Positions 1 to 52,173 of a stretch of 64,000 nt of DNA are shown piece after piece. Origin of the DNA: a virus. Every line of letters starts with the position of its first letter. Positions within the stretch are counted from its first letter, which is position 1. The stretch spans positions 1 to 64,000 of IMG/VR virus record IMGVR_UViG_3300032006_002011. One strand, given 5' to 3'. The translations under genes were made by a program, and so were the position numbers. The notes below the pieces were generated by a model. That model did no database searches. It saw only the letters and a program-made list of their open reading frames with translations, and was not told where the DNA came from.

Positions 1-299
1 AGGATTTGTTTGGTCTCGGCCGCGGTTGTGTTGTAAACCTTCACTCGCAATCTTGCCTTGTTGGGCAATAGACTCAAGTCACTAACACACGCACCATCAC
101 GTACGGTTATAGTATAATATCCATAGTCGTTGTGAACCTCTACGTGCTTTGGTTTGCGTTCCTTCACATCCCACAACACATACCCATGACCACGTGGGAG
201 TTCTCCGTGGTTTTGCTGAATCATGCTACCCGAGTAAACTACAACCGGTTTACTTGGATTGAGTCTTCGTATCTTTACGTATTTTTCTTTAGTTTCCAT
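1..299 (-). CDS. Mre11/gp47-like nuclease, C-terminal fragment (runs off window)
   Basis: Reading the minus strand from the ATG at 299 gives about 99 codons that stay open to the window edge. The stretch PVVVYSGSMIQQNHGE followed by HGYVLWDV matches what is known of T4 gp47/SbcD/Mre11 nucleases just after the last metal-binding histidine motif (capping-domain start). The phosphoesterase half of this protein is separate, at 1217-1921, with a glycosyltransferase gene between. The ATG overlaps the stop of that glycosyltransferase gene and has no good Shine-Dalgarno, so translation would depend on coupling. Seen: the conserved block and the overlap. Inferred: that the two pieces were once one gene and may act together as a two-chain nuclease. 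The alternative is a decaying pseudogene. Confidence 0.75.
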   Translation of the reverse strand, partial: METKEKYVKIRRLNPSKPVVVYSGSMIQQNHGELPRGHGYVLWDVKERKPKHVEVHNDYGYYTITVRDGACVSDLSLLPNKARLRVKVYNTTAAETKQI

Positions 300-1224
300 C
301 AAGTGCTATTCTTAAAATTTCCTCACCAACTTGGGCATCCGTTAAAAATGGATTTAACTCAACATGACCACCTTCTGGAAAATAAACATTTGGACCCAAA
401 AATGGTTTACGAGTTTCCAGACTATTTGTGTCACCTCCATTTTGTTGCCACCCAATTCCCTTTGGGCCGAACAGCTGATAGATATAGTCGGTGGTTATTA
501 TTGTCTTTGTACCGAGTGCCGATGAAACATTTGTAAGGCATCCTTCACCCCCAATAACATAATCACAATTCTTCATCAAACTTGCAGTAAATGAAAATTT
601 GCTAGTTGAATTCAAACAAGGATAATTCTTTGAAACCTTCTCATCAATACCCAATGCAAACAACATAATTTTTGGGGAAATCTCCAGGCAGTTAATTATG
701 TCAAATACATTTCGTTTTCCACTTCCGTACCCAGTTCCATCTTCTCCACCCTCCGCACGATAATATTCCTCTTCAGTAAACAGAAAACTTTTTCTGTCCC
801 AATCCGATTGGTATCCTATTTTAATCAAGTCATCGTCCCAATCACCAATTTGCGTCAACTCCTCCATACTTCTTTGTATAGAATAATCGAGTTGAGGATT
901 TGTAAAAACTTCAAAGGTATCATTGAAATTTTCAATTCCACACATTCGTTGAAACTGAGAAACTGCTGACTCATACGGACTTAATGTAGACACATCATCA
1001 TTCATCAATTGATATACTACATCATAATCTACATTTGCCGTTTCCTTGTAATACACTCCGTCTATATAAGGATTGTTGATAAGCAACTCCATAGGTTGCA
1101 AATAATTGACGTCATAATGAACAATGCAATTTGGATTCCGTTCTTTAAGTTTCTTTGCGACACTGCTTGAAAAAATCACATCACCTATGTGGATGTTCCG
1201 ACATCTTATCAGAATATTAGTCAT
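289..1224 (-). CDS. Glycosyltransferase family 9-like protein inserted within the Mre11-like gene
   Basis: 311 residues from the ATG at 1224, which has GGGAGG eight bases upstream; longer in-frame starts inside the neighbouring gene lack this. The N-terminus (ILIRCRNIHIGDVIFSSSVA, then a predicted 'NNPYIDGVYY' strand) and the C-terminal block FTASLMKNCDYVIGGEG plus SSALGTKTI resemble family 9 (heptosyltransferase/ADP-heptose type) glycosyltransferases: a GD near the N-terminus and a nucleotide-sugar pocket near the C-terminus. The acceptor and donor cannot be told. It overlaps the upstream nuclease fragment by 8 bases and the downstream fragment by 11, so it sits exactly in the break of that gene. 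Probably a transferred cassette. Confidence is good for the fold, low for substrate. Confidence 0.7.
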   Translation of the reverse strand: MTNILIRCRNIHIGDVIFSSSVAKKLKERNPNCIVHYDVNYLQPMELLINNPYIDGVYYKETANVDYDVVYQLMNDDVSTLSPYESAVSQFQRMCGIENFNDTFEVFTNPQLDYSIQRSMEELTQIGDWDDDLIKIGYQSDWDRKSFLFTEEEYYRAEGGEDGTGYGSGKRNVFDIINCLEISPKIMLFALGIDEKVSKNYPCLNSTSKFSFTASLMKNCDYVIGGEGCLTNVSSALGTKTIITTDYIYQLFGPKGIGWQQNGGDTNSLETRKPFLGPNVYFPEGGHVELNPFLTDAQVGEEILRIALDGN

Positions 1225-1921
1225 CACACACCTCCCATCCGTCAAGTACATACTTATCTGCCTTAGATTCAGGAACAAACAATGCTTCCGTATGATATTC
1301 TTGTAAGATTTGGTGTTTGTGAATATCACCCAACATCACCATGTCATACCCATCAAACATATACATCGGCACATCACCACCGACAATAATGTAACCCACG
1401 TCAGTTCTGCTTCTTTTAATTGCCCCATGATAAACTGCAACCTTTGTTGAAATTGATTTGTCGGTTATATCCTTTCCTCTGACATATTCACTTGGATCTT
1501 CAAATATACCGAACACACTAATTGCCACGTCACCAATTTTATAAACCCCAGTATCTCTTAAATAAAACAGATTGTCATTATCAAGCATATCAACGATTGG
1601 GGTCAATACATCCAATCTATCTGGATTGTTCAAGTTGCAATCGTGGTTTCCGGCAATTAATATTGTTGGATGTATTTCAGCACATTTATTAAAGAAGTCT
1701 GCAATCTCCGAAATGAGTTCAGGACTCATCTCCGTTTTTGCATGGGCAACATCACCACCAATAAAAATTATTGCGTTTTCAAGTGCATCATCTTCTAACT
1801 GCTTGTAAAAGTTTTCAAATACACTTCGGTATTCTTTATGACGCTTTACGTTTCTTAGGTGAATATCCGATACATGATAAATCTTTTCAACTTTTTTTAT
1901 CTTCGTGTCTAACTCATGCAT
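1217..1921 (-). CDS. Mre11/gp47-like recombination nuclease, N-terminal phosphoesterase fragment
   Basis: 234 residues holding the whole calcineurin-like metallophosphoesterase core: DIH at 19-21, GGDVAH at 55-60, GNHD at 91-94, YHG at 164-166 and GDIHKHQ at 198-204. These are the metal-binding motifs of Mre11/SbcD/T4 gp47, which with gp46 processes DNA ends in recombination-dependent replication. After residue ~210 the sequence leaves the family and ends with about 25 residues (…DGWEVCDD) before a stop. The capping domain that should follow is encoded at 1-299, beyond a glycosyltransferase gene. The start overlaps the primase stop by 13 bases. T4 gp47 is about 340 residues, so this is a two-thirds fragment with an intact catalytic core. 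Confidence 0.85.
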   Translation of the reverse strand: MHELDTKIKKVEKIYHVSDIHLRNVKRHKEYRSVFENFYKQLEDDALENAIIFIGGDVAHAKTEMSPELISEIADFFNKCAEIHPTILIAGNHDCNLNNPDRLDVLTPIVDMLDNDNLFYLRDTGVYKIGDVAISVFGIFEDPSEYVRGKDITDKSISTKVAVYHGAIKRSRTDVGYIIVGGDVPMYMFDGYDMVMLGDIHKHQILQEYHTEALFVPESKADKYVLDGWEVCDD

Positions 1922-2835
1922 AATTTTTGTTTCATCAATGCGTCAAATCCCATCACGGGGGTATTCCGAAGTTTTTCCACCATTCCTCGGAATCCGACGT
2001 CGGCGGCATCTTCGTTTCCCATTTTAACGAATCGCACCTTGATGTCCTCATTTAACAATGTTTCTGTAATTGCTACTGCATTTTTAATGGCATCTTCGTC
2101 AAGAACCACATAAACTTCAGAAACTTTGTTTTCAATCATTTTAATTTTCAATTTACTTGGGATATTTTTACCCAACAAAGCAATTGCGTTTCTCCGTATC
2201 GCAATCGCATCAAAAACTCCTTCACATAGCACAATGGGTTCGGAAAAATCTATTTGATTCTCAAACACCACTACATCTTTGCTGACTGGTGGATTTTTAT
2301 ATTTCAAATAAGCAGTTCCTGTAAAATCTCTTGCAATAAAATAATTTAATTTATTATCCCCATCAAATGACGGAACAATAATTCTACCCGCATAATCACC
2401 GTCAGAACAATATCCTATATCATATCTTTCAATATCATACGATTCAATATTTCGGTTAGATAGATAGTTCATTGCTTTTGTGTAAGAAAAATCCTTGTGT
2501 GCTTCGGTCAATCTTTTAAACTCATATGGCAATGACACATATTGTTCTTCGGTGTCTGCCAATTTCGTATTCTTGGGAAGTTTTACAATCTTCGATAATT
2601 CTGCAAAATAATTGGCAGGTACCTGCAACCTCTTAAACAATGCAAAGATGCTTCTTCCCTTTGCGTTGGTATCAATCCAACTCTGCCATCTCTGTGTGGT
2701 GAGATTTACTGCCAACTTAGGTTTTCTGTGATGTGAGAACGGACACATAAACATTGCCTCATCTTTTGAGACAATCTTACCTTCACCTAAAACTTTTTGT
2801 AATAAGGTAAGCAATTTCTGTTCGGAAATCCCCAT
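1909..2835 (-). CDS. DNA primase, T4 gp61-like, with eroded zinc ribbon
   Basis: 308 residues. The N-terminal 70 residues look like a CHC2/gp61 zinc ribbon (CPFSHH at 31-36, KLAVNL, then a W…W…KGRS stretch at 50-62) but only one cysteine remains where the family carries two CxxC-type pairs. The Toprim core is intact: CEG at 204-206 with GVFDA after it, ALLGKN at 219-224 and DED at 246-248 for metal binding. It should make RNA primers for lagging-strand synthesis with a gp41-type helicase that is not in this window. It lies 3 bases after the RuvC-like gene and overlaps the Mre11 fragment, so the three form one operon. Assignment as primase is firm; zinc binding is doubtful. Confidence 0.85.
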   Translation of the reverse strand: MGISEQKLLTLLQKVLGEGKIVSKDEAMFMCPFSHHRKPKLAVNLTTQRWQSWIDTNAKGRSIFALFKRLQVPANYFAELSKIVKLPKNTKLADTEEQYVSLPYEFKRLTEAHKDFSYTKAMNYLSNRNIESYDIERYDIGYCSDGDYAGRIIVPSFDGDNKLNYFIARDFTGTAYLKYKNPPVSKDVVVFENQIDFSEPIVLCEGVFDAIAIRRNAIALLGKNIPSKLKIKMIENKVSEVYVVLDEDAIKNAVAITETLLNEDIKVRFVKMGNEDAADVGFRGMVEKLRNTPVMGFDALMKQKLCMS

Positions 2836-2838
2836 TTG

Positions 2839-3360
2839 CTACTTATACCAGTGATAAAGAGATGCTACGGTTGCATCCAACATATCATAGTTCTTTTTAT
2901 CATAATTATTTCTACTATTATAGACGATAAACTTAGATAAATCAATCTTTTTCTCAAGTTGTTCACGTACGAATTGTTTACTATCCACTCCCTTTTCACG
3001 ACTTTTGCCAAAAACACCCTTTCTAAGAGTTGATACGTTTACATGCGTAATCTCGGTTTCAAATATTGCTTCAGTTACATAACTTACTACCGCATTGCAC
3101 TTTGCGAGTTTCACGATAGTTTGCTGACTAGTTCTTCCCCCACCAAATCCACTTAAACTATCCTCAACAATAATAACACCCGGAGTTCCTTCCAAGTCCT
3201 CAAGAACCCTTGCAACTTTATGTGCCTTGTCCCGTATAGTAGTTTCCTTGTGAATATCAATATAACCCGCTTCGGTTATTTTTTTCTTGGAGGTGGACAT
3301 ACAATATCCAACAACCGTTGAACTTATATCCAATCCCAAACAATAGGATTTTTTATGCAT
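2839..3360 (-). CDS. RuvC-like Holliday junction resolvase
   Basis: 173 residues of RNase H-like fold. Acidic residues expected for RuvC are present: D11 in LGLDISST, E66/D67 in IIVEDS, and D159/D162 in YDMLDATVAS near the C-terminus. A SREKG loop near residue 120 is also typical. RuvC-family enzymes cut four-way DNA junctions; in phages they resolve recombination intermediates before packaging. T4 itself uses the unrelated endonuclease VII (gp49), so this phage appears to have replaced that function. First gene of a replication operon with primase and the Mre11 fragment. The ATG has no Shine-Dalgarno and sits 8 bases after a likely -10 box, so the message may be leaderless. Confidence 0.85.
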   Translation of the reverse strand: MHKKSYCLGLDISSTVVGYCMSTSKKKITEAGYIDIHKETTIRDKAHKVARVLEDLEGTPGVIIVEDSLSGFGGGRTSQQTIVKLAKCNAVVSYVTEAIFETEITHVNVSTLRKGVFGKSREKGVDSKQFVREQLEKKIDLSKFIVYNSRNNYDKKNYDMLDATVASLYHWYK

Positions 3361-3891: not shown

Positions 3892-6800
3892 TTAAGTGTC
3901 ATATTTCACCAAAAAATTAATTGGGTAGTTGGGAACTATCTTCACGGGTTTGCTTAACTTGGCAACCATTACCAAATCTAACCCACTGTATAATCCAACC
4001 GTGGTTACATACGGTGCCAGATAACTGCCCAATTGATCTTTTGCATCGTTCTCGCGATAGTCCACGAAATCTTGCAGTATTTCAATACCACGATTTTTAC
4101 CAGTTCTATCGTCCAAAAATTCTATTATTTGATACGCAACGGAACGTGTTTGTTTTATCGTTGCATTAGTAAACGTATCTATCAACCCATCAGTCAAATC
4201 TGTTCCGGTTCTGCCCACAAAATACCTAACAAGAAGTTTAGCATCCATGTGACTAACAACTCCGTCACCGTCTATATCAAGCAACCCACGTTCCTCCAAA
4301 GACTCCAACCTAGAAAGTATCAACTTATATTCATTTGCAGTAACCGTTCCTTCGGTTGAACGCAAAAGAACATTCATTAATACCACATCCTCCGACTCGG
4401 TTAAAACCAAATCATCATTTGGCCAACGAGTATTATTACCTTCCTCCATCTTAATGCCCGGAGCATAATCACCACCCGATGGAATTGTTAAAATCTGACC
4501 TACATATAAAGTCTCAGAACCAATTCCCGCATTGGCAGTTTGGATGGCATCCACAGTTACACCCGTAAACTTAGCAACTGACTGAATTGACTGAACTGAT
4601 CTAACAATGTGAACATAACCCGAAGAAAAGATCAGTTCGTCCCCAGGAACAATCGTATCATCGTACCTTAATTTATTACCAACAACCCCATTCGAATAAC
4701 TACGAATATCCAAAAATCCAAATGAAGACTCTACGGGTATCTTGCTTCGGGCATCTATATCATTTTTAGATGGATATGGTATGCCGTATTCTCTGCATAT
4801 TGTCTCCAATGTTTCCGAACCTACTACATATGTTTCCTTCGTATCATGTTTAATCTCCACCAGAGAACCTATCATATAACGATATATGTAAGCAAGATCC
4901 GTAATATCAAATTTCTTATCTACATTTACATCATAGTCAATATCGTCAAAAACAACAGATGTTGGATTCGTACTAACATTAAATTCGGAAGGTGAAACCG
5001 AACATAATATCTCATTCTCATATATTGCGTGTGTTCCACGATATGATACCTCAAATCCACTATCGGATGTTCCCGAAAACATATTTGAAAAATAATCAGA
5101 AGTATTCGTTATAACTGCTATTCCGTTCTTATAAAAAACATTTCCAACATAAACTCTCGATTGATCTCGTATTGATGCAACATCGTAGGCCAAGACTTTT
5201 CCTGCTATATCAATATCCATATTAGATAATCTACCCCATGCAATATCTCCATATTCGGAGTATATGGTAGAGCATTGCTCAAATAAACCTATATCCGCAC
5301 CCTCAAATGCCTCTACACCAGAGAGTGGAAAGTTTCCCATAATTGGACACCCTACATAGATATAATCAGAACTTAGTGTCACCGCAGTTCCATATTGATG
5401 CCTCACCCTGTGCGGATATTTATTCGTCTTTACGTTTGCCATCTTTTCTGCACCATCGGAGCCTATACGATAATAGTAAACATTTCCTTCCTCTGCACTT
5501 CGTTTTGTATAATAAACAAATTCTATGTCCTGTTCAAACCAACCGGTGGTTTCTGAGTTGTCTGCGATGTTTGTATCGACATCAACATAAAACCAAAGTT
5601 TGCCATCTTGAAACTTAGTCAAATCACGATATACTCCTCGGGTAACCGCACCCAAATTTTTTGTATATACATTAAGTCTACACCGAGAGTTTACCACTTC
5701 TCCTACATACGAAGTTCCGGATGAAATAAAATAAATCTTATTTGATGCGAGGGTTCCTGTTATTGTTACATGACCCATGAACTTATTATCTATATCATAT
5801 ATATCAATTGGAGACGGTGTGGCAGACGAATCTGTAACCACATCCGATAGCATCAATACACCGGGAGTAGTCCATACCGATGATATTATTCCTCGTTCAG
5901 TATCCGAAATCGCCACCTCAGGAGAAACTTCATATTCTCGGTGACCCCTCGGGAACTTAACCGAATGCAAAAGATTCTTATCAGTTTTAATAAAGTTTGC
6001 GGAAATCATAAACTCTGATATTAGGTCTAGATCAATAGTCATCGTATCAACTGATATTTTAACCGCAACATCGGGCATATCTCCACCCACATATATGCAC
6101 TCTGCATCTGTAAATACATTTACCTCAGATGTGTAGTATTTGTCTGATATATTCTTGGTCCCTCGTTTAAAGTCACGGACACCTACATTTTCACCACCAT
6201 CCAAAATTGAAATCTCACTTGCATCCGTACAGGGAGACCCAACTACAAAGTCCGTCCCTTTTAGTGATACACTACGGCCGTATTCACTTGAATATCTAAA
6301 CTCTTCATGTGGGTCAGAATACATCTTTTCAACAAATGAAAGTTTTCCATTTGTGGTGGAGTATACATAAGTTGCACCCGCACGATACTTGTCTTGTGTG
6401 TTGGAAGGATCGGTATACTCCCTGTCAAATGAATCACCAATAACCAGTGTATTCTCATTTGCATCCAACGATACTCCAAAGTTACCATCAACACTATAGT
6501 TATACTCATATGGATATTTCACACGTGAATTCCGTTGGGGTGTGTCATAATAAATTGGATTGATTGCCAAATTAATCCTAGATTGATGACCGACCAAAGT
6601 AGAATCTTTAGTGGTTCGGCCGAGGTATATATCATGGACTCCGTTTGTAAGTGTCAGTGCAAGTGTTCCTCCATCGATATGTGTTCCGTTGTGATTTACC
6701 AACTCTGTTTTAGATGACTCATTGAGTGGAGCATTAACACGATAAACAAACCCAGATTCGGCATCCGTGGCAGCTGCAATTGCCACCTTTATAAAAACCT

Positions 6801-9800
6801 CATTATCTTGTATTTCATAACTAATATCAGAAAATCCATCACCAAGGCCAACCGGGTCCGTATTAAAATTATATATACCATCTTTGGTTATATTATATGT
6901 GTGACGCCACCCAACTCCACAATCCGTAGGTTCATCTAACTTGCTCAACACACTACAATATTTAAATCGTGAACCCGGAGTCGTTGCATATATGGAGTTT
7001 GATGTCAACTTAACCCCCTCGCCCAGTCTACGAGAACCCGGAATCCTTATTACCTCAACCAACTCCCATGTCACATCACCCACGGCGTGAGCAGGAGACA
7101 TAGACCCATCTTCATACTCTGCATATCTCGGTGGTGGGAATCCAGTTACTGTTCCTTCGGTTGATATGGAAATTCCATCAAATGTTTCAATCTCCACCGC
7201 ATCAATGGAATCGCACGGTCCTTCTCTGTAGTCATCTGTATCAACTATATCATAAGGTGTCAATTTGCACTTGTTATCTACAATAACACCTGACTCACAT
7301 CCTACCGAACCCGATCTTTTAAAGTATATGTTCATGCTATACGGATTTCCGTAATATGTTATTGTGCCGAGAAGAATATTTCGGAAGTCATATACATCAA
7401 CCACATACGGTTGATTTCCATATTTTGTATCCGCATGAGAAAGTGATATTGTTCCGTTATATGTCCAAGATGATGACTTCACCCCCCAGTCCGAATCATC
7501 TATAACCAAGTCGGATGAAACTTCATATGTGTTAAACCCACTCTCGGTACACTCTTCTAACTCCAACTCAGGACCGGAAGTGTCCTTCAGTTGATGTCTA
7601 ATGTCGCACCTGCCCCCCTCAATTGAACCAAAAAATCTATCCCCAGTGGGAGTTGTAAAGTAAATAATGGACTGACCCGGATGACCCGAGTATGTAATGT
7701 GACCAACAAAGTTTTCATCTGCATCGTAAATATCAATTGGAAACGGTGTATTCGTAAGTGACGCATCGGATGGGGGAATTGATAGAATTCCCTCATATAA
7801 CCAACTAGACGAAACTACTCCACTATCTTGATCCCGTATCTCCGAGGTGGGTGATACTCTGTAATCATTTAAATCACTGGAAATTAATTTCCCAGACAAA
7901 GGTAACCCGTCCGATGGAGAAGATGAATCCCCCACTTTGGTCCCCGACATAACCAACTCAACAGGAAGAATGCATACGTGGTCATCAATCCTCCCATATA
8001 CACACGCAGAACTTTGGTCAGATGTTCTAAAATATAAATTCATGGATTTTGGTCGACCCGTATATGTTATGTGACCCACCAAGGTATTTGTGGAATCATA
8101 TACATCAACCGGATAAGGTGCAACTGATGTAGTCGAGTCTGAATCAGAAATTGACAATATTCCCGGTTTCATCCAGTTAGACGAAGTTACACCCGCAACT
8201 TTATCGTCTATCTTTTCGGAAAGGGACACTCGGTAGTCTGTGAACCCTGGTTCCGAACATTGATTTGGCAATATTCCTCCCGTCATTCTACACACATTAT
8301 TTTCAATAGTTCCACTTATGCAACTCGTCCCTCCCTCACCAAAAGAAAAATACAAACTCATAATCTTTGGTTTACCCGTATATGTTACATGGCCAAGGAA
8401 ATTATCCGATGAATCATATACGTCAACCGGATATGGGGATGAAGATTCTGACTGGTCTGCTGGGGAAGTTGCCAATATACCACTCATTGCCCACCCAGAT
8501 GTGGTTACTCCATTATCTTGATCTGATATGGGTCTGTCTGTAGAAATATCATATTGAATTAAACCCACCTCTGTACATCTCTTATACAATAGTTCACTAT
8601 CATCTCTATAAAAATGATTTAAGGTATCTGCGTTGGGTACAAGACTTGTAATGTTCCATTTAGAAATCCACTTATTATTTTTCTCAAGTATGTCACCCGA
8701 TGGTTTGCCTACATATACACCCTCACTATCAGACCACACATAATCATCATGCGAGTCAGAAATTCTCTTCCACGGATGATTTTCCGTTCGTACTCCCCGT
8801 TTAAACAAATATATCGCACCTTCGGACTTATTATGACCAGGTGCACCAACTGCCATATAATTTCCTTTTACTGACACCGAAGCACCAAACTCCGTTCCCG
8901 GTTCTCCCTCCAATACATTAACCAACCCCCAGTGGTCTGCACCTCCCTTTTCCTTATCATATACAAACACATGGCCAGTTGTACCGTTTTTACTACACAT
9001 TCCTCTGATGTGTGATTTTGAAGATCCTATTACACAGGTATTATGATTTAATTCAATCGCATCACCGAAATTATCATTTACGGAGTAATCTTCATTTACA
9101 AGAAGTCCCTCAAGTTCCGTCATCAAAAACCCCGTATTATCATTCTGTAATTCAATTGATAATCCGTTTTGCGTAAATGGATTTGTGAATTGTCGCAATA
9201 TCCTAAACTCACCCGTTTCATCATCCAACTTATACATAATTGCACGACCACTGTTTACTTCAGTTGGTGCATCTTCCATGACAGGTTGACCCGATAAAAA
9301 ATATTTTCCAGCAGATGCAAGTTTATACCCAAACGTTAAATCATTAAAATCAAATATCTTATTATTTTTATCAATCTTAGTAACACCAGATACACTACCC
9401 GACACTTCTTTAATCTCATTAAAAGACGATGTACTAATTACAAGATTTGTCGCACCATCATCTACAATTTCCAAAACTCCATAGGGAGAACTATAATCTC
9501 TAATTCTAAATTCACCTGGTTTGATTTTTTCTCCCATCTGCGAAGAATCAAACTGAACCACTATTATATCGTCCGAAATAAATCTTCGTTCATATTGACT
9601 GGGAGATTCTTTGTTAAATATCTGATTTTCCTCTTTGGACTGCATCATATAATTACCGGTCTCTGACCCAAATACCATTAGTGGGTTTTTAACATTACTA
9701 CCCGTGGCACTCATGGACGGACTGACACCATAATCATTATAGAACAAGTGTTTTATTGAATTATAGACCACGCGTTGGTATGTCCCATCTGGATTGGTGA

Positions 9801-10074
9801 ATTCGTGGGAAGAATCGTGCAGTTTATGACCCGTAGGATAAAATGTATCAGACGCATCGTATCGTTTTCCCCGACTAACTTTCAATGAAGTAGTTCTCTT
9901 CGATTGCTCGGGTGCAAGGATTGTTTGTTCGTCTATAAATAATGACAAGGGACCGGTTGAACTTTCCTGTTCAAGCAAAATTTCATCAGTAGAAGTTATG
10001 TTATCATAATTCCACTTTTTATGAGTTTTGAATCTCCTAACCGATTTGTCAGAAACTTTCAACGGCTTTATCAT
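3892..10074 (-). CDS. Giant mosaic tail/fibre protein (2060 aa) with FG-GAP, LysM, dockerin-like and repeated beta modules
   Basis: One uninterrupted frame. Seen in order: an N-terminal region that resembles the neighbouring structural protein; FG-GAP/integrin-type blades (FGASVSVKGNYMAVGAPG near residue 390, others near 1200, 1265 and 1560); four consecutive ~95-residue modules around residues 507-942 and a fifth near 1380-1470, each with SS.W, PYPVDVYD and GHITYTG; two calcium-loop dockerin-like helices (DVNVDKKFDITDLAYIYRYM near 1720 and DIDGDGVVSHMDAK near 1935) flanking a pair of LysM-like segments (1745-1861); and a final TTVGLYSG…VAKLSKPV tail shared with the next gene. Such folds bind polysaccharide or protein surfaces, so a host-contact role is likely. 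A late promoter (AATAAATA) lies 26 bases before the start. Confidence 0.85.
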   Translation of the reverse strand: MIKPLKVSDKSVRRFKTHKKWNYDNITSTDEILLEQESSTGPLSLFIDEQTILAPEQSKRTTSLKVSRGKRYDASDTFYPTGHKLHDSSHEFTNPDGTYQRVVYNSIKHLFYNDYGVSPSMSATGSNVKNPLMVFGSETGNYMMQSKEENQIFNKESPSQYERRFISDDIIVVQFDSSQMGEKIKPGEFRIRDYSSPYGVLEIVDDGATNLVISTSSFNEIKEVSGSVSGVTKIDKNNKIFDFNDLTFGYKLASAGKYFLSGQPVMEDAPTEVNSGRAIMYKLDDETGEFRILRQFTNPFTQNGLSIELQNDNTGFLMTELEGLLVNEDYSVNDNFGDAIELNHNTCVIGSSKSHIRGMCSKNGTTGHVFVYDKEKGGADHWGLVNVLEGEPGTEFGASVSVKGNYMAVGAPGHNKSEGAIYLFKRGVRTENHPWKRISDSHDDYVWSDSEGVYVGKPSGDILEKNNKWISKWNITSLVPNADTLNHFYRDDSELLYKRCTEVGLIQYDISTDRPISDQDNGVTTSGWAMSGILATSPADQSESSSPYPVDVYDSSDNFLGHVTYTGKPKIMSLYFSFGEGGTSCISGTIENNVCRMTGGILPNQCSEPGFTDYRVSLSEKIDDKVAGVTSSNWMKPGILSISDSDSTTSVAPYPVDVYDSTNTLVGHITYTGRPKSMNLYFRTSDQSSACVYGRIDDHVCILPVELVMSGTKVGDSSSPSDGLPLSGKLISSDLNDYRVSPTSEIRDQDSGVVSSSWLYEGILSIPPSDASLTNTPFPIDIYDADENFVGHITYSGHPGQSIIYFTTPTGDRFFGSIEGGRCDIRHQLKDTSGPELELEECTESGFNTYEVSSDLVIDDSDWGVKSSSWTYNGTISLSHADTKYGNQPYVVDVYDFRNILLGTITYYGNPYSMNIYFKRSGSVGCESGVIVDNKCKLTPYDIVDTDDYREGPCDSIDAVEIETFDGISISTEGTVTGFPPPRYAEYEDGSMSPAHAVGDVTWELVEVIRIPGSRRLGEGVKLTSNSIYATTPGSRFKYCSVLSKLDEPTDCGVGWRHTYNITKDGIYNFNTDPVGLGDGFSDISYEIQDNEVFIKVAIAAATDAESGFVYRVNAPLNESSKTELVNHNGTHIDGGTLALTLTNGVHDIYLGRTTKDSTLVGHQSRINLAINPIYYDTPQRNSRVKYPYEYNYSVDGNFGVSLDANENTLVIGDSFDREYTDPSNTQDKYRAGATYVYSTTNGKLSFVEKMYSDPHEEFRYSSEYGRSVSLKGTDFVVGSPCTDASEISILDGGENVGVRDFKRGTKNISDKYYTSEVNVFTDAECIYVGGDMPDVAVKISVDTMTIDLDLISEFMISANFIKTDKNLLHSVKFPRGHREYEVSPEVAISDTERGIISSVWTTPGVLMLSDVVTDSSATPSPIDIYDIDNKFMGHVTITGTLASNKIYFISSGTSYVGEVVNSRCRLNVYTKNLGAVTRGVYRDLTKFQDGKLWFYVDVDTNIADNSETTGWFEQDIEFVYYTKRSAEEGNVYYYRIGSDGAEKMANVKTNKYPHRVRHQYGTAVTLSSDYIYVGCPIMGNFPLSGVEAFEGADIGLFEQCSTIYSEYGDIAWGRLSNMDIDIAGKVLAYDVASIRDQSRVYVGNVFYKNGIAVITNTSDYFSNMFSGTSDSGFEVSYRGTHAIYENEILCSVSPSEFNVSTNPTSVVFDDIDYDVNVDKKFDITDLAYIYRYMIGSLVEIKHDTKETYVVGSETLETICREYGIPYPSKNDIDARSKIPVESSFGFLDIRSYSNGVVGNKLRYDDTIVPGDELIFSSGYVHIVRSVQSIQSVAKFTGVTVDAIQTANAGIGSETLYVGQILTIPSGGDYAPGIKMEEGNNTRWPNDDLVLTESEDVVLMNVLLRSTEGTVTANEYKLILSRLESLEERGLLDIDGDGVVSHMDAKLLVRYFVGRTGTDLTDGLIDTFTNATIKQTRSVAYQIIEFLDDRTGKNRGIEILQDFVDYRENDAKDQLGSYLAPYVTTVGLYSGLDLVMVAKLSKPVKIVPNYPINFLVKYDT
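5662..5942 (-). repeat. Fifth copy of the ~95-residue VDVYD/GHITYTG module
   Basis: Encodes EYEVSPEV, then SSVW, SPIDIYD, GHVTITG, KIYF and a closing CRL. Same order and spacing as the four tandem copies at 7249-8553 and the copy at 21383-21706, but diverged (ITITG-type variation). Confidence 0.75.
7249..8553 (-). repeat. Four tandem copies of a ~95-residue protein module
   Basis: Copies at about 8275-8553, 7957-8240, 7588-7866 and 7249-7533. Each has [YD]..VS at the start, a D..….GV.SS.W stretch, GILSI or similar, P[YF]P[VI]D[VI]YD, GHITYTG or near variants, an [IL]YF strand, and a closing G.I…C.[IL] pair. Conservation is clearer at protein than at DNA level, so the duplications are old. 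Confidence 0.85.
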
Positions 10075-13362: not shown

Positions 13363-16300
13363 TTATTGTTCAGTTGGTGTAGGACTTGGGCTTGGGGTGA
13401 GTGAAGTTTCAATTGTCCACTCGGGTGCAGTTGCCGTATAACAAGTTCCCTCGGATTCGTAATAAATTGTAGGTGTCTCTCCATCTGGATAAGTGTTAGT
13501 TGTGATTATCCTTGCCACAGTAAAATTTCCATCCTTGATAGCAATGGTTATTTCTTCGGTTGATGTTTCAGAAAACTCCTTTGGATTAAAACTTACCACC
13601 GCAGTTGGTAAACTTATGAGAATCTTAAACTCACCCATAACAATTTCCGAAGATGAATATGGTACTTCGATGTACTCATCTGTGGGTGTGCATTGTTGCA
13701 CGGGGGTCGGTGTGGGTGTTGGGGTAGGTGTAGGTGTTGGGGTAGGTGTTGGGGTCGGAGTCAACTCTACCGAGTCTTCAAACGAATATGAAAACTCAAT
13801 CTTCTCTTGTTTTTCCTCGGACAACATCGGCGAAACTATCAGGCCTGGGTCTTCTCTCACTACGGATACCACAGGGGTGTCATCTATGAACCAAAAATGA
13901 TCAGGAGACCCACTACCCGTGCGGGTTCTTACTATTGGTGAGGTGGAATTTAGATGCCCCGACAAGTTTGCGGTAGTTGAGACATCATTGACACCTCGGC
14001 CGATAATATTTCGTCTAAAATTACTTCTATGTATAGGAAACTTTTTCTTTGTAAACAGAGAACCAGGTGTTCCAATATTTACTAAATCACACAATTGAGT
14101 TGGTCGTTCAATCACATAATCAAATGGAATAGTTTTTGATACCTGACGTGTCCATGATTTAAGTTGATTACCGTCAGCACTGATTCCGTCACCTATTCCA
14201 TATTCAAACTCATCAACATGAACTGATGTGTGTATTTTCTCCGCAACATAATCTTCACGACATCTTGGTGTAATAACAATCTTAACATCCAAGGTAACGT
14301 CAGAAATCAAACCAGTATAATTAGGTATATTCAATTTGCTTGATATAACCAAAGGAGTTTGTTTAATTATTTGCTCGGAAGTGACCACTGCACTTCCACT
14401 CTCCTCAACTCCGAAAAATTCAGCAGACCAATTAATAAGAGAATTTCCATCATAACTAAAACTAACTTTAGTATTTTCTCTAGTATCCTTGGTGAATATC
14501 TCCGGTTCGTGGGTAACATCAATAGGCAAAGTTATTTTATATAAATTGCTCTGTTGTGATGATATTGGGGTGATGGAAAACTTCACGGATGAATCTAACT
14601 GAGATGAAATCTTTTCACTGGAAAGTGTATCGAGTTTAGTAATCACCGGTGTTGGGTGGATATGATATGAAGTTGTATTCGTGGTGGGTGAATAATCTAC
14701 CTCATACTCAAATGTATCATAATTCATATCAGAAATTGACATATCCGAGGGATTCTTCAATTTATTAAGATTATCAAGTTCCGTTATTTGTGTCTTCTGT
14801 GGATCTTTGAACTGACCCAATAAAAGTTTATAGTTAACTACCAAAAATGATTCGGGGTCTATGTTTCTAACATCACCGAGGGCCAATTTAGGTGCAGTTA
14901 TACTTGCAAGGGTATTGGTTGGGGTGGACTTGACACTATCAAGATCATCCGTTGTTAACTTAAATTTATAAAACACACCTTGCATAAAGTCGGCCGAATT
15001 GTGGTTTGTTGGATTAACCTCCGAATCGAATCTATCTACGTTCTCAAATACTATACCCGACAGTTGTGTTTCGTATTTATCGGTGAATACCCACTTTGAC
15101 TGGAATGAGTTGGGTTTGCGATCCATACAAGCAATAATCCAATTATTTCTATTTGCAAATGTATACGCATTACCATTCGAGTCCATAGTGCCCGTTGTAG
15201 TATATATACCATTGGCATCCTCAATATCACACTCCGAAACTTCAACGGTTGTTAAATCTATCAACTTTAGCATAGCAACCGATTGCCAATTATCACGCAT
15301 TCTATATTCACCGGGGTGGGGACATAACATTGTTGCTAATTTATTTACATTTTTATCATATGCGTCCTGCGGGACTCCATTTCGTTTCTGTAAACTTGCT
15401 TCGGGAGAAGCCTCTAATGGTGGGACATCTATTGTTTTCAACGAAACATATATGTCTCGGCAACTTGTCACTCCCTCGTTTTTCAATTCCGCAACACCTA
15501 TATCATACGATGGGTTGTTTGGATCAGAGCTGCTCGTTGATGAAATATAAAGTGGATCAGTGTCTGATTTTCTTTGTATTATATACTTTGTAGGATCATC
15601 TCTTTTTATAAATAGTTTGTCCCCCGGTGATGTTCCTGTGTTAGTTTCCTCACGACTCTCGGTGTATACTCCATTAAATGTCGCAGACGCACCTGTCCCA
15701 CAGGAAACTTCGATTGCAAGTTCACCACCAATTCCATATAAATATGGTTTATCTACACCCAAATTAAGTAAGTCACACCTAGCAATATTTGAATTTTTTT
15801 CAATATTATTTTCAACTAAACTCGGAGATGCATATGGATATGCTTTCAAATCACGACAATCTACATCACCAACGGCCTCTTTCTTTACATGACCCCAATT
15901 TATGTATAAATCTTCCGATATCTCATCGGTGGTAGACAATGGAACTTTATTCGTAACAGGAATCCTTGGATTAAACGGGATGGGGGCAGACGGTGTACGT
16001 CTTGTATAAAATACATTGGAGCTTCCCGTGGGGAATATTTCAGATTGTTTCTCTCTATAAGTGCAGTCGGGAGTTATAGTTACCTCCGTGGTGGATTTAA
16101 TATATCCCAATTTAGTTGCAAGTGTCTCAGTTTCTTGAAACGACATATCCCGATAATATTCAGAGTAGTTTGGTTTTGAAACATGACTAATAATCCACCT
16201 ATCAGGAGTATTCATTTTAGTAGATTTTTTCAAACGAATTTCATACTCCTCGGAGGTAGATCTAAAAATCACATCATCTTCCGTATCGGTTAAACTTATA

Positions 16301-19300
16301 TTAACCCGTGTATATATTCCGCGTGGAATTTTTTCATTCTTGGCCGTGTTGGAATAATACATACTTCGGGTAGGATCAACTTCAACCGAAACCGTATTAT
16401 AATCATCAGGTATCCAATTAAGTATAACTTCCGCACCACCACCCTCTCTTCTATAATTGCCAGGAATTGGAAGGGTTGGAGTCTTCCTCTTCGCCACAAT
16501 ACACCACGCAAGCTTTTCTATTGAAGCTGCTAAGTTATCTGATTCAAATCTCGCAAAGTGATGTGGGTTGGGTATCAATCTAAAAGAATTTCCCACCACA
16601 GGGCCACTTGACGCAGAAAGCATATCAAGTCTTTCTGGGCTGGATGTTATTGTATCTCTAAAATAACTTGCCGAGGACTGATAACTCAGTTTGTTCTTTT
16701 GTTCAAGGGATGGAATATATGCGTATCCCGTTTGTGGGGCATACCCAAGGCCATCCGAAGTTTGCTGGAATGTCTTGCCACCCAGTTTTATATACAAATC
16801 GGTTTCATCATGTGTAGAGAACTTATTATCTTCATTAATCCTACAACTGAATTCACGTGCTAAATTAATAACCCACTTTGTTGGCATATGAGTATTAAAA
16901 TACTTTGTCAGATTCAATTGCTGATATGTAGTTTTCATGGAATTTCGTATCTCTGTTGCGAGTGGAACACACTCCACAAGAACCCAAGTATACACATCCT
17001 CGTTCCAATACAAATACCACCCACGGCCGTTTGTATATGATGGATTTTCCCCGGAAACCCCATTTACTTTTCTATATAACCCGTTTGCAGATAGGGCGAC
17101 ATTCTTGAAACCAAAAAGTTTCACCGCAGACGGATCTCTGAATATGTACACCAATCCATTTCCGTCTGTGTCCAACCCAAGTGCTTCGGCTGACAACAAA
17201 TTAACATATCCCTCTTCATCATTGTTGAGTAAATCTACAACCGGAGTATCGGTATTAAGTTCATTTCTATGATAACCGACATCACCACCATATAAAGTGT
17301 TAAACTCTGGGTGAGTTGCGTCTTCCTTTCCATAAATCCACATTATATCGTGCCGAACTGGACTTTCATGCGGAATATACAATTTTTGTTCATCGGTAAA
17401 ATTAATAGAATAGTTATTGCTATGGAGGAGTATCCACCTGTGATTTATATCACTCCAAAAAATGTAGTTAACCTTTCGACCTATAAATCCCTTTGGCAGA
17501 AGGTGGGCATCTCCACTAATATCTCCTATTACATTCTGGCGGTAGTTGCCATCTATGTCACGATCATTTCTATATAAAGATTTTCCATTATATGTTCCGA
17601 TCTCCAAATAAGATCCATTCAACATATCCATCTGACCCTCAAACTCAGTTATATCAATTGAATTAAATTTAGTTAATTCATAGACACAAAAATAATTCCC
17701 CAGGGTATCTGATTGGTTATAAGTTACATCTTTATCGAACGGCAAAATTTCCAATTCATATTTGTATGAGGGGTTTTCAATCTTTATATCAATTGGTATG
17801 TGTAAGTTGTTCTTTGTATATACAATTTTATCCGCAGTTCCACCGTCAAAGCCAACATCTTGAGTGACTATACTGGAATCATATGCCAATCTATGTTCTG
17901 CAAATACACTCGACAACTCAACCGTGCCACCCGGTCTTAATAACCCATAACCCAACCGAGGTGTTGCAGACCACTCCACAATTTCATCCGAAAGTGACAC
18001 CTTATCCAAACCTTGCTTGTCCACAGAATGTTTGACTCTGTGAATGTGGTCTTCACTGCGTCCAGACACCTTCTTTGTTGTGACGGTTTCCTCCAAATAC
18101 CCCACCAACCATATATTTTGAACTACATGTTTTTTGTGCGGCGATGATCCCAGTGAGGGGGATTTAATGTGAAAGAAACACACCTTGGAAATATCATGGT
18201 TTTCCAACTCCGTTATATTATAGGTGTTATATATGTAATTTCTATCAGAAAGTTCGGTATCTACTGAGGCTATAGTTTGAGTTAAAACAGAATTTATTCG
18301 GGCGTCCCAGTTTTCGGGATCATTTGACCTCTGTTGTTCCGCCCTAGCAACAAAATCTCTATTCTCAATATACTCATTACCCGAGGTAAAATTTTGATGA
18401 GAATAGTCATATTCATATATGTACCCAGAAACACAATTCGACCCAGAAGATACTATACTTACGTCTGGATTAGTTGAATCCGTGGAATCTATGGAAAACT
18501 CAACATTAAGTGGTCGGTCAACCGCCTGTAATCCTGTTTTCATTTTAATTCTATAATATTTTGTGTGTTCGGGATCAAGTTCCGTGTGAGCAAGTACCTT
18601 AATATCACGGAGGGTAGTTCCTCGTAAATTGGCCGTTAATTCCACCGAGTAATCTAACAGGGTAGGAAATGAGAACGTATCTGTAGTTCTGTGGTTAACT
18701 GCTAGAGAATAACTACCCGAAATCCGTTGGTCTCCACCGTGCCTAAACTCCAATTTGTTTTGTACATCATAGTGTACATATGGAGAATCCACTTCACCAT
18801 ATCTAATAGTAGTGTTTTCGTAGGTTTTAAAAGTTGATGTAACTGGTACTAAATTAACCGAGTCAAACTCCTTAGTTATATAGTTTGTTTTAATTTGAAC
18901 AGTCTCATCAAGATTTGTTGTTATACTACCCGATTCTTTATTTACTATATCATTTATGCTATATATCGTAGCACCCACATCGTCCGTTGGAAGCGTCCAC
19001 GGATTATCACAATCATAGTAATTCGCAGAATTTACTGTTCCCGTTACTCTAAAGTCTCCTCCACCTTGACCGAGTGTTCCTCTCAATAACTTCCCACTGA
19101 ACTTACCGTCCATGAAAATAGTTTTACTCACACCATCTTTTTCAAAGTGATAATTAGTAACCTCATAATATCCGGTTTTGGGTTGCCAAACATCCTCATT
19201 ATTTATACGAGTCAGCACCTTATATTTGCCCGAAAAATTACCATATAATTCACAACTCAAATTACCGACAACACGACCACGATCATCCGGCACATTGTTA

Positions 19301-22300
19301 GTGTTGATAGACAAAATTCTATCATTCATAACAGATGCAGACGGTAACAGACCAGAATCCACCTGAGTAATAGAATTGTTATCGTAATATGCAGTATTAT
19401 CTTTCTTGTTTCCAACAAACCGGCATGGCCATGTATACACCATGTTCTCACACGAATCACCCGTATCAAATACCCACAACAACCCCTCCTTGGGGATTAA
19501 TAACCCACCTTCTTCACTTATGCTTGCTGGGTTCTCATTTACCAACACCCACCTTTCTCTAGACCTACTCCAAAATATAAACCATGTTTTTGAGTTATTT
19601 GAAAACGACAACTTACCATTAATAAGAATACCCGACCTATATACACCATTTGCTTTCGCGAACTCACCCACATATGTGCCATCACCATTAACCAACCCAT
19701 CTATTTTAATTATTACATCCGTGAGGCGATCATAGTCTACATCACTGCTCATATCATACTTGATAGGAAGTCTTATTTGATACGACCTTGGCAATGACTC
19801 CACTTTGTACATAGTTGAACCAATTGTATGGACTCCATATATGGACGAAACACCGTACATATCTTGGTCAAGGGCATTGCTAACATAATTCCCTGTATAA
19901 TTAAAATTAAATGTCCTGTTATGATCTGGTTCATTTGCACTATCTGCTCTTTTATATCCTGCGTTTGAAGAAAGCAATACCACCGAAGTATCCTTTGACG
20001 TACCTCCGGGTGTTCTGGGATTTGCGAAAGATGCTATACTGGTAGTGGTATCGTGACATGACAATTTTATGTTATGTAATCTAGTTATCTTTCTCTCATT
20101 TGTCGCCTTTTCAGTAATAGAGTTCAGTCCCAACGGGTTGTTTATATTTTCCAACGATTCACTTGAAATTTTATTAAACTCAGAACGAACTGAAGATACC
20201 AACTTGGCACTTCTGAATTTATTTCTTTCAAGTATGCTCGGTTCAACCAATAAACCCGATATCAAACGGGTTCTGGCGGGAGTTAACTTTTCGATATTTT
20301 CAAACAACGAAGCATCGACATATGCCTTCATAATGTTCAAGTACATAGACCAGTCTATCTGACCGAATCCCTCTTTATAAAACACCCTCTTAAATTGATT
20401 ATATCGTTCATACTCACTTTCATATAAATCCGATGGATCACCTATGTAGTCACCCAATTCAAAATTACCAAAGAATCTTAATATCTCTGTGTTAATCAAA
20501 TCCGTTGGACTGAAAAACACTCCAAGAGTGTTGGTATCGACCGCCAACCTGTCACCCGACTTCTCCGTTGCTCTAGAATAAGGACTTAGTGTTCCTGTTA
20601 GTTTCTGTTCCTCTATTCTGATTTTTTTATTATTAAATGCCTGAGCACCGAATAAGGGAAGTTTTGCGTATTGCCGTCTAGCACTTCCCGTGAAATCATA
20701 GGGAAATTCCCGCGAACGGAAATTCCAACACTCAATTTCTTTAGGAGCATCTTCCCTGAATGCACTATTTAAAATAACTCCATGTGGTGACTCGTCTTGA
20801 GCATGGCTTGGGTTTCCGGCAGCCGTTATATCATAAGGGTAGTCAAAGTTAGATTTAAAAATCAACGACTCATTTAGTGTAAGTGGATCGTCTATATCAT
20901 ATGACTGATTAAATAATATATGATTTTCAAATCGGTCTTCCGGAATTTCAATATTATACATTCTCAGTCGATTAAATGTTCCGCGGTATGTAGAAGAAGC
21001 ATAATTTCCAAAAAATATGTTATTGTAAGAGTTAAACTTGGTAAACGCATCAAATGTGGTAGGTATTAAACTAGAATAACTAACCACCACATCAGCATCC
21101 ACCACCTTCTTAACATACAACTTTAAATATCGTGAGAACTCGGCCGTTGACGAGGTTGATTTCACAAGCATTATGTTATAGTCTCCCGCACCCAATACAT
21201 TTACCGGTGGGTGTGATTTATCTGGACAATAATGTCTACCACTTGCTTCGGATTCGAAGTAAAATCTACCATATCCGTCTTGTTGACGTCCCGGGGAAAT
21301 CTCAACCCCAATCTCCCAATCTGACGAAGCATCCTCATCATTAAATGACTTATCAGAATTAACGAAAGAAATATCAACAGAAACTGGGTTTAGTATACAT
21401 TCGTTATCACTAATCTGACCCACCAAGGTTTCTCCCTCATATAAACCCTCGGTTGGGGTGTAATATATTTTTAACCCAGAAAGTGTTCCACTTGGTATAC
21501 CCGTGTAAGTTATGTGGCCTGCCAGCGTTCCCTCGGGTCCATATACATCAACTGGATACGGAGAGGAGGTGTCATCTTCCATACCGTATACGGGAACCTC
21601 CGTTGTTGCGGATGGTATTGACATACGACCCGACCATTGCCACGTGGAAGATGTTATACCCCCGTCTTGATCCACAATCGGGGTGGAACGAGATACTGCA
21701 TATTCTAATTGGCCGAATTCCGTAGATAAGTTGGTGGTTCTCAATGAATCATCAAATGATAGTTCAAACTCAAGTGTTCTAACCTCATACAAATCAGAAT
21801 TCCAAGGAATTGCAAGATACTGATCGTCCTCTGAAAACTCTAGTTTATAATCAAATATATCAAAACTAAAAACCGAATCGTCCGACTCACCACTCGTTGA
21901 ATATCTTACACCCCCATATTCCTTTATTTTAAAAAGGTGATCTGGGACACCGTAACACCGAAGCAAAGCAGATATAGATCTCTCAGTTCCAATAGTCTTA
22001 AGGATGTGAGGAAGGTTGTTTAATATCCTCCTCCATATTATATCACGACGTTGCTTAATAGACAATTTATCAGATGGTTGAGATGCCGAAATATCATCAC
22101 CCGAATCATCTTGGCCTGAGAATCTTATTCCGAGTGAATTCATTATAAACCATACAAGTTGATTTGGAACTCCCTTGGTTGATTTGTTTCTCGGTTTGAG
22201 AGATGCACCCATATTGGCAATGTAAGTATAAATCAAATCAAAGTGATTTCCGACCAAATTTAGAAAATCAACAAAATCTTCATTAGAATCATCACGAACC

Positions 22301-44750: not shown

Positions 44751-46010
44751 ATGAAGAAAAAGATATTGCTCCTTGGAGATGATATTCGAGTCGTGTCGGG
44801 GGTTTCCCGTATTTGCAAACAATTGATACTGTCGGGTATACACACATATGATTGGGTGCAGGTCGCTGCTCAAAAAAACAATCCCGACAACGGAAATGTA
44901 ATTGATGTGTCAGATTCGGTCAATTCACTCATGGGTAGTGATGATGCTTATGTTAGACTTTATTGTACTTCGGGGTATGGAAACCAAGCAACTATACGAC
45001 AGATTCTAGCAGAAGAAAAACCCGATGCACTTTTACATGTAACTGATCCAAGATACTGGGGTTGGTTATATAGAATGGAAAACGAAATTAGAAAAAATAT
45101 TCCATTGTGTTATTATCATGTGTGGGACAACGAACCAGTTCCTTTGTATAATAAGACCATATACGAATCATGTGATTGGATTGGTTGTATCAGCAAGGTA
45201 ACTCATAAATGTGTAGAGGGTGCAAGTGGGGTGAACAATCACTCATATGTCCCGCACGGAGTGGATACATCCACATATTGTCCATTAGATAAAGATGTAT
45301 CTATTAAGTGTAAGCAAAACTTACTTGAATCGTCCTGTGAGTTTATGCTATTTGTAAATAATGCAAACATGAGGCGTAAGCAGATGTTACTAACACTTGA
45401 AGCATTTGATAAGTTTTGTAGTAAACTTAAACTAAGTGAATCGCAGTCTGTTGCGATAATGTTGCACACAAACCCAACTAATAATGTTGGTTCAAATCTA
45501 AACATTGCAATTGACAATTTATACCCAAACAGAAATATAATATTCTCCACGTCGGTGGTTTCCGATGAAACCCTAAACCAAATGTATAACTCGGCCGACG
45601 TGACGTTAAACTTGGCAAGCAATGAAGGTTTTGGTCTGGCAACACTGGAATCACTTTCCGCAGGAACTCCGATAATAGTGAATAAGTCGGGTGGGTTGTC
45701 TGAGCAAATTGATGATGAAAACACTTGGGGAATTGGAATCAACCCAAAGGTGCGTAATTTAATAGGTAGTCCAAATGTTCCGTATATATACGATGATATA
45801 TGTTGTGCGGATGACGTTGCTGAAGCAATATATGAAATGTATCAAAAAACCTACGAGGAAAGATGTACAATGGGTCTTGCTGGACGTGACTTTGTAATGA
45901 ACTCGGGGTATACCAATCAAGATATGTGCGAAGGAATTTACACAGGTCTTGAAAGTGCAATAGATAATCATACCCCACGTGAAACATTCAGGTGCTTGAA
46001 AGTAACATAA
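44751..46010 (+). CDS. Glycosyltransferase family 4-like (GT-B)
   Basis: 419 residues. Residues 1-40 (ILLLGDDIRVVSGVSRICKQ) fit the N-terminal Rossmann half with its glycine loop. The C-terminal half shows YVPHGVDTSTYCP near 165, EGFGLATLESLSAGTPIIV (the E.G.G…E…G.P family 4 signature) and NKSGGLSEQI. It should transfer a sugar from a nucleotide donor to an unknown acceptor. It heads the plus-strand operon: the TAA overlaps the next ATG (TAATG), and its own promoter lies just upstream. Phage-encoded enzymes of this type may modify phage DNA, virion proteins or host glycans. Confidence 0.85.
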   Translation: MKKKILLLGDDIRVVSGVSRICKQLILSGIHTYDWVQVAAQKNNPDNGNVIDVSDSVNSLMGSDDAYVRLYCTSGYGNQATIRQILAEEKPDALLHVTDPRYWGWLYRMENEIRKNIPLCYYHVWDNEPVPLYNKTIYESCDWIGCISKVTHKCVEGASGVNNHSYVPHGVDTSTYCPLDKDVSIKCKQNLLESSCEFMLFVNNANMRRKQMLLTLEAFDKFCSKLKLSESQSVAIMLHTNPTNNVGSNLNIAIDNLYPNRNIIFSTSVVSDETLNQMYNSADVTLNLASNEGFGLATLESLSAGTPIIVNKSGGLSEQIDDENTWGIGINPKVRNLIGSPNVPYIYDDICCADDVAEAIYEMYQKTYEERCTMGLAGRDFVMNSGYTNQDMCEGIYTGLESAIDNHTPRETFRCLKVT

Positions 46011-47254
46011 TGAAAGAAAACAAAATATTATTTATAGGACCCGTTGCATCACGAAGTGGTTATGGAGAACATGCGCGTGAAATTGCAGACTATCTATGTA
46101 AGTGGGATGCGGACTTTCTCGTTACAAGTTGGGGAGATAATCCCATGACTGCACTTGAGAATGAAGATGAAATCACCAAGAAAATTACAGAACGAATTGT
46201 GCCGAAGGCAACGAAAGGTTCATATGACGTGTGTATTCACCTTGGTATGCCAACAGAATTTCAAAAAATTGGAAATTACAATATAGGAATTACTGCTGGA
46301 GTGGAAACGGATAGATGCCCAGTTCAGTTTTTAAAGGGATGCAATGATGTTGACTTGGTAATCGTACCTTCGGATTTTTCCAAAAGCACATTCTTGAATA
46401 CAGAGTGTATAGAAGACGGAAAACAAATTAAATGCACAACTCCAATTGAAGTTATATCCGAAACAGTTAACCCAGCATTCCACTACAAGGAGAACGCACA
46501 CTCAGACACATTAAATTCCAAACTAAATGCAATAACCGAAGATTTTTGTTTTATGTTTGTTGGTCAGTGGGTTTCATCTCAAACAGATGACGGGGGTCGG
46601 AAGAATGTAAATTCACTTATATCAACATTCTGTGAGACATTTAAAAACGAATCAAACCCACCTGCGTTAGTGTTGAAAACCAATGGAGTAGATTTCAGTT
46701 TATTTGACGAGGTTAACACACGACAACTCATTGAATCCGTTACCGATAACTTTGAAAATCCTCCTAGCATTTATTTAATACACGGGGAATTAACAGAACA
46801 TGAAATGGCATCATTATACAACCACCCCAAAATTAAATGCCACATCAGTCACACACGGGGAGAAGGATTTGGCAGACCTTTGTTGGAAGCATCGTTAAGT
46901 GGTAAACCCGTTATCGCACCCAAGTGGTCGGGTCACTTAGACTTTCTTCCCAAGAAAAATAACTTGTTGATTCCGGGTAAGATGAAACCAGTCGGAGTAG
47001 TTAATTCACTATTTGCAGATGGTGCTCAATGGTTTGATGTGGACGTTGACCGCAGTCGTGAATTAATGAAAGATGTCTATGTAAATTACGACAAACATCA
47101 GAAACGTGCAATTGCATTGGCAGATGATAATCTTGAAAAGTTTAGTAGAAAGTCAATATTTAATATATATGACAATATATTCAATCAATATATTCCCCCC
47201 AAGAAACGGGAAGTTGAATTGAAATTACCTAACATTAAAAAACTACCGACTTAA
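46010..47254 (+). CDS. Second glycosyltransferase family 4-like protein
   Basis: 414 residues from the ATG at 46010, which overlaps the previous stop. The N-terminus ILFIGPVASRSGYGEHAREI carries the GxG loop of GT-B enzymes and the C-terminus has HISHTRGEGFGRPLLEASL, then GKPVIAPKWSGH, the family 4 E-x7-E arrangement. It differs strongly from the gene before it, so this is not a recent duplicate. Sugar and target unknown. It is followed after one base by an unrelated 240-residue gene. Confidence 0.85.
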   Translation: MKENKILFIGPVASRSGYGEHAREIADYLCKWDADFLVTSWGDNPMTALENEDEITKKITERIVPKATKGSYDVCIHLGMPTEFQKIGNYNIGITAGVETDRCPVQFLKGCNDVDLVIVPSDFSKSTFLNTECIEDGKQIKCTTPIEVISETVNPAFHYKENAHSDTLNSKLNAITEDFCFMFVGQWVSSQTDDGGRKNVNSLISTFCETFKNESNPPALVLKTNGVDFSLFDEVNTRQLIESVTDNFENPPSIYLIHGELTEHEMASLYNHPKIKCHISHTRGEGFGRPLLEASLSGKPVIAPKWSGHLDFLPKKNNLLIPGKMKPVGVVNSLFADGAQWFDVDVDRSRELMKDVYVNYDKHQKRAIALADDNLEKFSRKSIFNIYDNIFNQYIPPKKREVELKLPNIKKLPT

Positions 47255-47255
47255 A

Positions 47256-51277: not shown

Positions 51278-51290
51278 AAATTTCATATAT

Positions 51291-52103: not shown

Positions 52104-52112
52104 TAAACCCCC

Positions 52113-52139
52113 ACCTTTGTTATATTTATAACAAAAGGT
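52113..52139 (+). terminator. Weak hairpin between the membrane-protein gene and the sugar operon
   Basis: Arms ACCTTTGTTAT and ATAACAAAAGGT form an 11-pair stem with one bulged base and a 4-base loop. No T-run follows on the plus strand, so termination is uncertain; it may instead stabilise the mRNA end. Confidence 0.35.
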
Positions 52140-52173
52140 TATACCGCATTTTAATTTATGGAGATTGCGTTAT

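Follow-up and report, generated by a model that had tools for sequence, protein, structure and literature searches.

A phage Mre11-Rad50 gene kept in two pieces around a glycosyltransferase gene, probably after fracture by a homing endonuclease

How does a phage come to carry a recombination nuclease gene in two pieces with an entire glycosyltransferase (GT) gene between them, and what made the break? The question is raised by one end of the stretch of DNA analysed here (the window), the first 64 kb of a 77.6-kb IMG/VR viral record (IMGVR_UViG_3300032006_002011). Window position 1 is the contig end, so the C-terminal piece of the nuclease is merely cut off there. The features concerned are as follows.

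1909..2835, minus strand: DNA primase gene, directly upstream of the N piece (phrog_47, E 1.7e-35)
1217..1921, minus strand: N piece, 234 aa, Mre11/SbcD phosphoesterase core up to the GDIHK motif, then a C-terminal tail
1220..1294, minus strand: N-tail, 25 aa, HTEALFVPESKADKYVLDGWEVCDD (from alignment, tail HMMs and a collection scan)
289..1224, minus strand: glycosyltransferase, 311 aa, GT9/heptosyltransferase-like, inside the break (from TIGR02201 matches and an AlphaFold2 model)
3..299, minus strand: C piece, first 99 aa, cut by the contig end (phrog_100, positions 224-303)
258..299, minus strand: C-head, 14 aa, METKEKYVKIRRLN (from alignment and the clade table)

A sequence-only reading of the window had described a nuclease split by a complete GT gene, and its coordinates, frames and overlaps were all correct on re-check. 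N piece, GT and C piece occupy three different reading frames; the N piece overlaps the GT by 8 nt (ATGACTAA) and the GT overlaps the C piece by 11 nt (ATGGAAACTAA), while the GT frame that separates the fragments is intact over 289-1224. The primase frame and the N piece share 13 nt. A RuvC-like ORF of 173 aa, recognized by eye (start CLGLDISSTVVGYC; 2839-3360, minus strand), immediately precedes the primase. The window also holds two giant minus-strand ORFs, of 3,721 aa (13363-24528) and 2,060 aa (3892-10074); the latter, by eye, has repeat units of ~90-100 aa with the pattern EYRVS...GVxSSxW..G.

That both fragments belong to one nuclease family, as first supposed, is borne out by their consecutive matches to the SbcD-like family phrog_100: positions 18-222 for the N piece (E 1.3e-13) and 224-303 for the C piece (E 4.1e-6). 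PF00149 also matches the N piece (9.3e-9), and the phosphoesterase motifs with their metal ligands are present. The break had been placed at the natural domain boundary, with the C fragment beginning the capping domain. The cap is indeed there, preceded by more of the core: the C piece runs from its 14-aa head through the last Mre11 core strand (YSGSMIQQN) to the capping domain. Since it opens with that last phosphoesterase strand, the break falls in a loop within the nuclease domain and not at its boundary. The nuclease core is thus not in one polypeptide, being broken after GDIHK..QEY in the window and in 35 further contigs.

The full extent of the C piece can be seen in L083, a locus on a contig 97-100% identical to the window, where it is 868 aa long and includes Rad50 after the cap, with a CEYC zinc hook and a DEGWGSLD Walker B/D-loop; its Rad50 ATPase part matches the SbcC-like family phrog_77 (3.2e-46). 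The junction was looked up in intact relatives, as the sequence-only reading had proposed, and 85 unsplit loci (at most about 54% identity) have one open frame across it. Where complete, the unsplit gene encodes about 1,050-1,080 aa, Mre11 then Rad50 in a single chain; in L077, for example, the Metallophos domain takes up the first 196 residues and the phrog_77 match residues 352-1050. Microcystis phage Mel-JY01 has such an Mre11-Rad50 fusion with a primase upstream, as in the window. What was split is therefore this single-chain fusion, which the first reading did not foresee, and not a separate gp47 of the T4 kind. Two unsplit loci have peculiarities of their own. The frame of L139 (4350-7178) stops at 942 aa, against about 1,064. 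In L122 (3366-7532) an intein-like insert of ~320 aa (CYSEDHELLTQSGW...ISICGN), found by eye, breaks the GNHD metal motif. It is a second kind of homing element in this gene, which such elements have thus targeted repeatedly.

A recent disruption had been offered as one reading of the locus; the 35 other IMG/VR contigs with N piece, GT and C piece in the same order, together with purifying selection on both halves, exclude it. Identity to the window across these contigs is 64-97% for the N piece and 74-100% for the C piece. The N piece is 234 aa in all 35 homologues. The C piece is 866-868 aa wherever complete, with the single exception of L008 (773 aa), which changes frame near its end, after 'YEDRH', relative to L007 and so falls short of 866 aa, possibly through an error in sequencing or assembly. 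All 23 representatives have the 8-nt N/GT overlap at one and the same place; the GT/C overlap is 8-14 nt, mostly 11, and the C start codon overlaps the GT stop. Median pairwise dN/dS (NG86, leaving out saturated pairs, about half) is lowest in the C piece (0.09) and the N core (0.10), followed by the tail (0.17), the GT (0.25) and the 13-codon head (0.31). The GT loci cluster on a single branch (support 99) of the Mre11-core tree, amid unsplit relatives. By these comparisons the split is old, and kept through deep divergence.

Old as it is, the split could still have inactivated the enzyme, leaving the halves as relics while a host or other phage enzyme substitutes. This would suit a break within the catalytic domain, and sequence is no proof of activity. 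Against it, both halves are under purifying selection, lengths and overlaps are constant over deep divergence, and the metal motifs and nearly all invariant residues are kept: the window retains 45 of the 50 positions that never vary in unsplit relatives and has a V-to-I change at one, and the contig ends before the other four are reached. A full-length second gp47 had been named as the finding that would undo the split-gene interpretation; no second Mre11 or Rad50 was found in eight GT-clade contigs of up to 170 kb, all of which may be incomplete. We regard a degenerate locus as very improbable. The first reading's other proposal, that the enzyme works as two chains with a cassette sitting in the break, is much the better supported, by the 35 contigs, the selection and the lack of a second copy in those eight.

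Two chains would not be needed if the halves were joined after all, by intron splicing, split-intein ligation, ribosomal bypass or frameshifting. Phages do join the parts of certain other genes in such ways, through group I introns, the split inteins of fractured genes or the bypass of T4 gene 60, and the relative L122 carries a complete intein at another place in this very gene. Here, though, the halves are separated by an entire GT frame, which has a start and a stop of its own and overlaps both of them, and the C pieces begin with a start codon that overlaps the GT stop. A group I or II intron around the insert was rejected, there being no intron match in Rfam; so was a split intein at the junction, as the 25-aa tail and 14-aa head are too short for intein halves and have no Pfam match. 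A pseudogene and a frameshift fusion were likewise considered and rejected. The chance that one chain is made seems to us slight, and two separate chains remain the preferred reading.

What made the break is suggested by relatives in which the same site is found in other states. An ORF of 305 aa occupies the break in the uncultured phage LR756508 (484 kb); it has a TnsA-like nuclease domain (5.8e-6) and matches the HNH-endonuclease family phrog_1271 (3.5e-15). A scan for relatives of the LR756508 N piece confirmed none. The break of L172 (on the same contig as L038) holds an HNH-family ORF (1.2e-7) cut by the contig end. That of L175 contains 103 aa that match the homing endonuclease families phrog_9084 (2.1e-9) and phrog_559 (2.4e-13) and, judged by these matches, are a decayed fragment of a Vsr-like homing endonuclease. 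L173 (6694-6799) is a vacant split, with ~100 bp and no gene between separate N and C frames. L177 (6001-9219) and L178 are in one frame again, with a scar, QEYSCEELVVNESKLTTKKIKHIKPA, where unsplit sisters have a short turn, and we read them as re-fused genes that keep the tails as a scar of ~20 residues. Homologues that are contiguous, with no insert, comprise the 85 loci plus L176 and others.

Unlike the GT loci, the endonuclease-group loci are scattered among empty ones on the Mre11-core tree, L172 being sister to the empty L176 (support 99) and L175 to the re-fused L177 (97). L172 and L176 come from different metagenomes. Over 5.96 kb they share 97.4% identity, 98-100% for the most part, but only 75-84% in the last 300 nt before the break. 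Such a divergent tract is as expected from co-conversion of the flank in homing, the data giving no direction; a recombination event with an empty donor that removed the insert could leave a similar tract.

A possible link between the endonuclease and GT breaks, besides the shared site, lies at their edges. Alignment with unsplit relatives shows additional residues there, a tail on the split N piece and a head on the split C piece. The tail reads E..L.KYL..GW in the endonuclease group and.DEYKLDGW in the GT clade, and the head Y.K.KR or K.K.KR; in the GT clade, the L172 group and LR756508 the break falls in the same codon interval and the patterns are similar, the tail being acidic with.Y...GW after that and the head basic with Y.K.KR. 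Mean tail charge is -3.1 in the GT clade and -7 to -10 elsewhere, and mean head charge +2.1 and +2 to +6, respectively. When an HMM of the endonuclease-group tail was run against all six-frame ORFs of the fetched loci, its best non-self matches were the window-group tails (E 0.12) and that of LR756508 (E 0.28), at the homologous place, and the reverse HMM ranked the L172 tail first (E 1.4). By score the case for tail homology between GT and endonuclease breaks is weak (E 0.12-1.4); it is position that argues for it. On other genes the endonuclease-group pattern was not seen, an IMG/VR scan returning only the known split loci; the tail peptide gave chance-level matches only in INPHARED, no match in Pfam, and weak matches to small unknown proteins in PHROGs. 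The window's tails have counterparts in endonuclease-occupied relatives, which the first reading had not anticipated, nor had it considered a homing endonuclease, rather than the GT, as the likely cause of the break.

The GT gene might instead have made the break itself, inserting directly by illegitimate recombination, with the endonuclease breaks as independent events in the same vulnerable loop and the two-chain enzyme working all the same. No endonuclease remnant is found in the GT clade (endonuclease-type ORFs occupy the break only in LR756508, L172 and L175), the GT clade and the endonuclease group are on different branches, and the cross-group similarity of the tails is low by score; all three favour this account. 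It leaves unexplained why the codon interval is shared, why tail and head patterns are similar in the GT clade, the L172 group and LR756508, and why each tail HMM, its own group aside, matches best the tails of other groups in the homologous position. We also know of no site-targeting means for a glycosyltransferase, and count this against direct insertion, which we judge unlikely.

A structural role for the tails is suggested by the naturally re-fused gene. An AlphaFold2 model of L177 (mean pLDDT 86.8; 65-93 over the scar part) is Mre11-like, its top structure matches being 3qg5, 3tho and 3thn (the nearest solved structures are Mre11 and SbcD). In it the scar forms an extended antiparallel hairpin with strands at 202-216 and 219-233, a position at which unsplit relatives have ~20 residues fewer by alignment. 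From this model we infer that the tail and head strands would pair between chains in the split phages. The GW codons of the tail (GGxTGG) lie ~12-17 nt before the GT start, and these G-rich codons may be kept in part as a ribosome-binding site for the GT.

The present occupant appears to be a metabolic enzyme. TIGR02201 (heptosyltransferase III) matches 20 of 24 GT members, the best at 8.5e-6 and far below the curated cut-off, and the top Foldseek matches of the AlphaFold2 model are the GT9 enzymes 3tov, 1psw and WaaC at a moderate TM of about 0.5; the predicted fold is GT-B of the GT9 type, heptosyltransferase-like. INPHARED gave no match to the GT. Relatives at 31-39% identity occur in other phages, away from any Mre11 gene within the fetched flanks, and in the two sets examined their neighbours include a PfkB kinase, an NAD-epimerase and another glycosyltransferase, so that the GT was probably recruited from such a sugar-gene cluster. 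The window has a glycan cluster of its own at 44751-56601 (plus strand), with glycosyltransferases (phrog_2170, GT1, GT2), UDP-glucose/GDP-mannose dehydrogenase, a sulfotransferase and an NAD epimerase. GT and N trees conflict: the grouping of L024 with L018/L019/L035, a supported branch for the N piece, is rejected for the GT (p 1.5e-7; groups named after the trees were seen). GT alleles have therefore been exchanged between lineages while remaining in the break.

Taken together, we consider it probable that a homing endonuclease fractured the fusion gene, that the halves were kept as two chains and that a GT9-like gene replaced the endonuclease. The ancestor would have been a single Mre11-Rad50 fusion gene, and a free-standing homing endonuclease cassette would have entered the codons of the beta-hairpin tip just after the GDIHK metal motif. 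The cassette would have brought new codons on both sides, so that each half gained a tail. In the clade of the window the endonuclease would later have been swapped for a GT9-like glycosyltransferase from phage glycan clusters, a step we infer because no GT-clade member still holds an endonuclease. The three genes, now read in overlapping frames, would be translationally coupled. Contact between the halves would most likely be non-covalent: the acidic strand of the N-tail and the basic one of the C-head would lengthen the original hairpin, and the extended hairpin would rebuild the nuclease fold to give a two-chain Mre11/Rad50 enzyme. We give even chances to the further proposal that the tails are a beta-strand clasp left by the homing endonuclease, through which a DNA-repair nuclease broken within its active domain works in two chains, and the break a stable slot, exchangeable by recombination, in which a metabolic gene has replaced a selfish one.

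Fracture by a homing endonuclease with function retained is already known. In Aeromonas phage Aeh1, insertion of the free-standing homing endonuclease gene mobE splits the essential ribonucleotide reductase gene nrdA in a critical region into genes-in-pieces, NrdA-a and NrdA-b, whose two polypeptides assemble with no splicing; the gene 43 DNA polymerase of Aeromonas phages 25 and 44RR and the T4 topoisomerase (mobA), both replication genes of T4 type, are also functional two-chain splits (PMC2988022). The present locus resembles Aeh1 nrdA as a phage enzyme gene split in a critical region with short tails at the break. It differs in its target, an Mre11-Rad50 fusion, in having a GT in the break with the endonuclease gone, and in the range of its relatives' states (empty, occupied, decayed, vacant, re-fused). 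The short tails left by the element in Aeh1 reportedly act as interaction domains (Crona 2011). In gene 43 and the T4 topoisomerase the intervening piece is an endonuclease or untranslated filler; here it is a metabolic enzyme, and the gene is another one. Fractured genes with split inteins are also broken around a free-standing endonuclease gene, and the Vsr-like nuclease in the L175 break recalls them; unlike those, neither half here has intein sequence and the chains are not ligated. Fold and motifs are common to the nuclease of the window and to phage and cellular Mre11-Rad50, SbcCD and T4 gp46-47, from which the present family differs in that unsplit relatives are single-chain and the GT clade is split inside the nuclease domain. 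We found no report of a split phage Mre11-Rad50 in the open-licence literature. New features are the gene that was hit, a fracture point within the nuclease core, the complete series of states among relatives, and a metabolic gene that has apparently moved in.

A phage clade thus keeps its nuclease broken beside the last metal motif, while relatives show the break empty, occupied, decayed, vacant and re-fused, and this series makes the making and reassembly of permanently fragmented enzymes directly testable. The niche of a selfish gene has apparently been taken over by a metabolic one, and the locus supplies a natural split site for a two-part nuclease.
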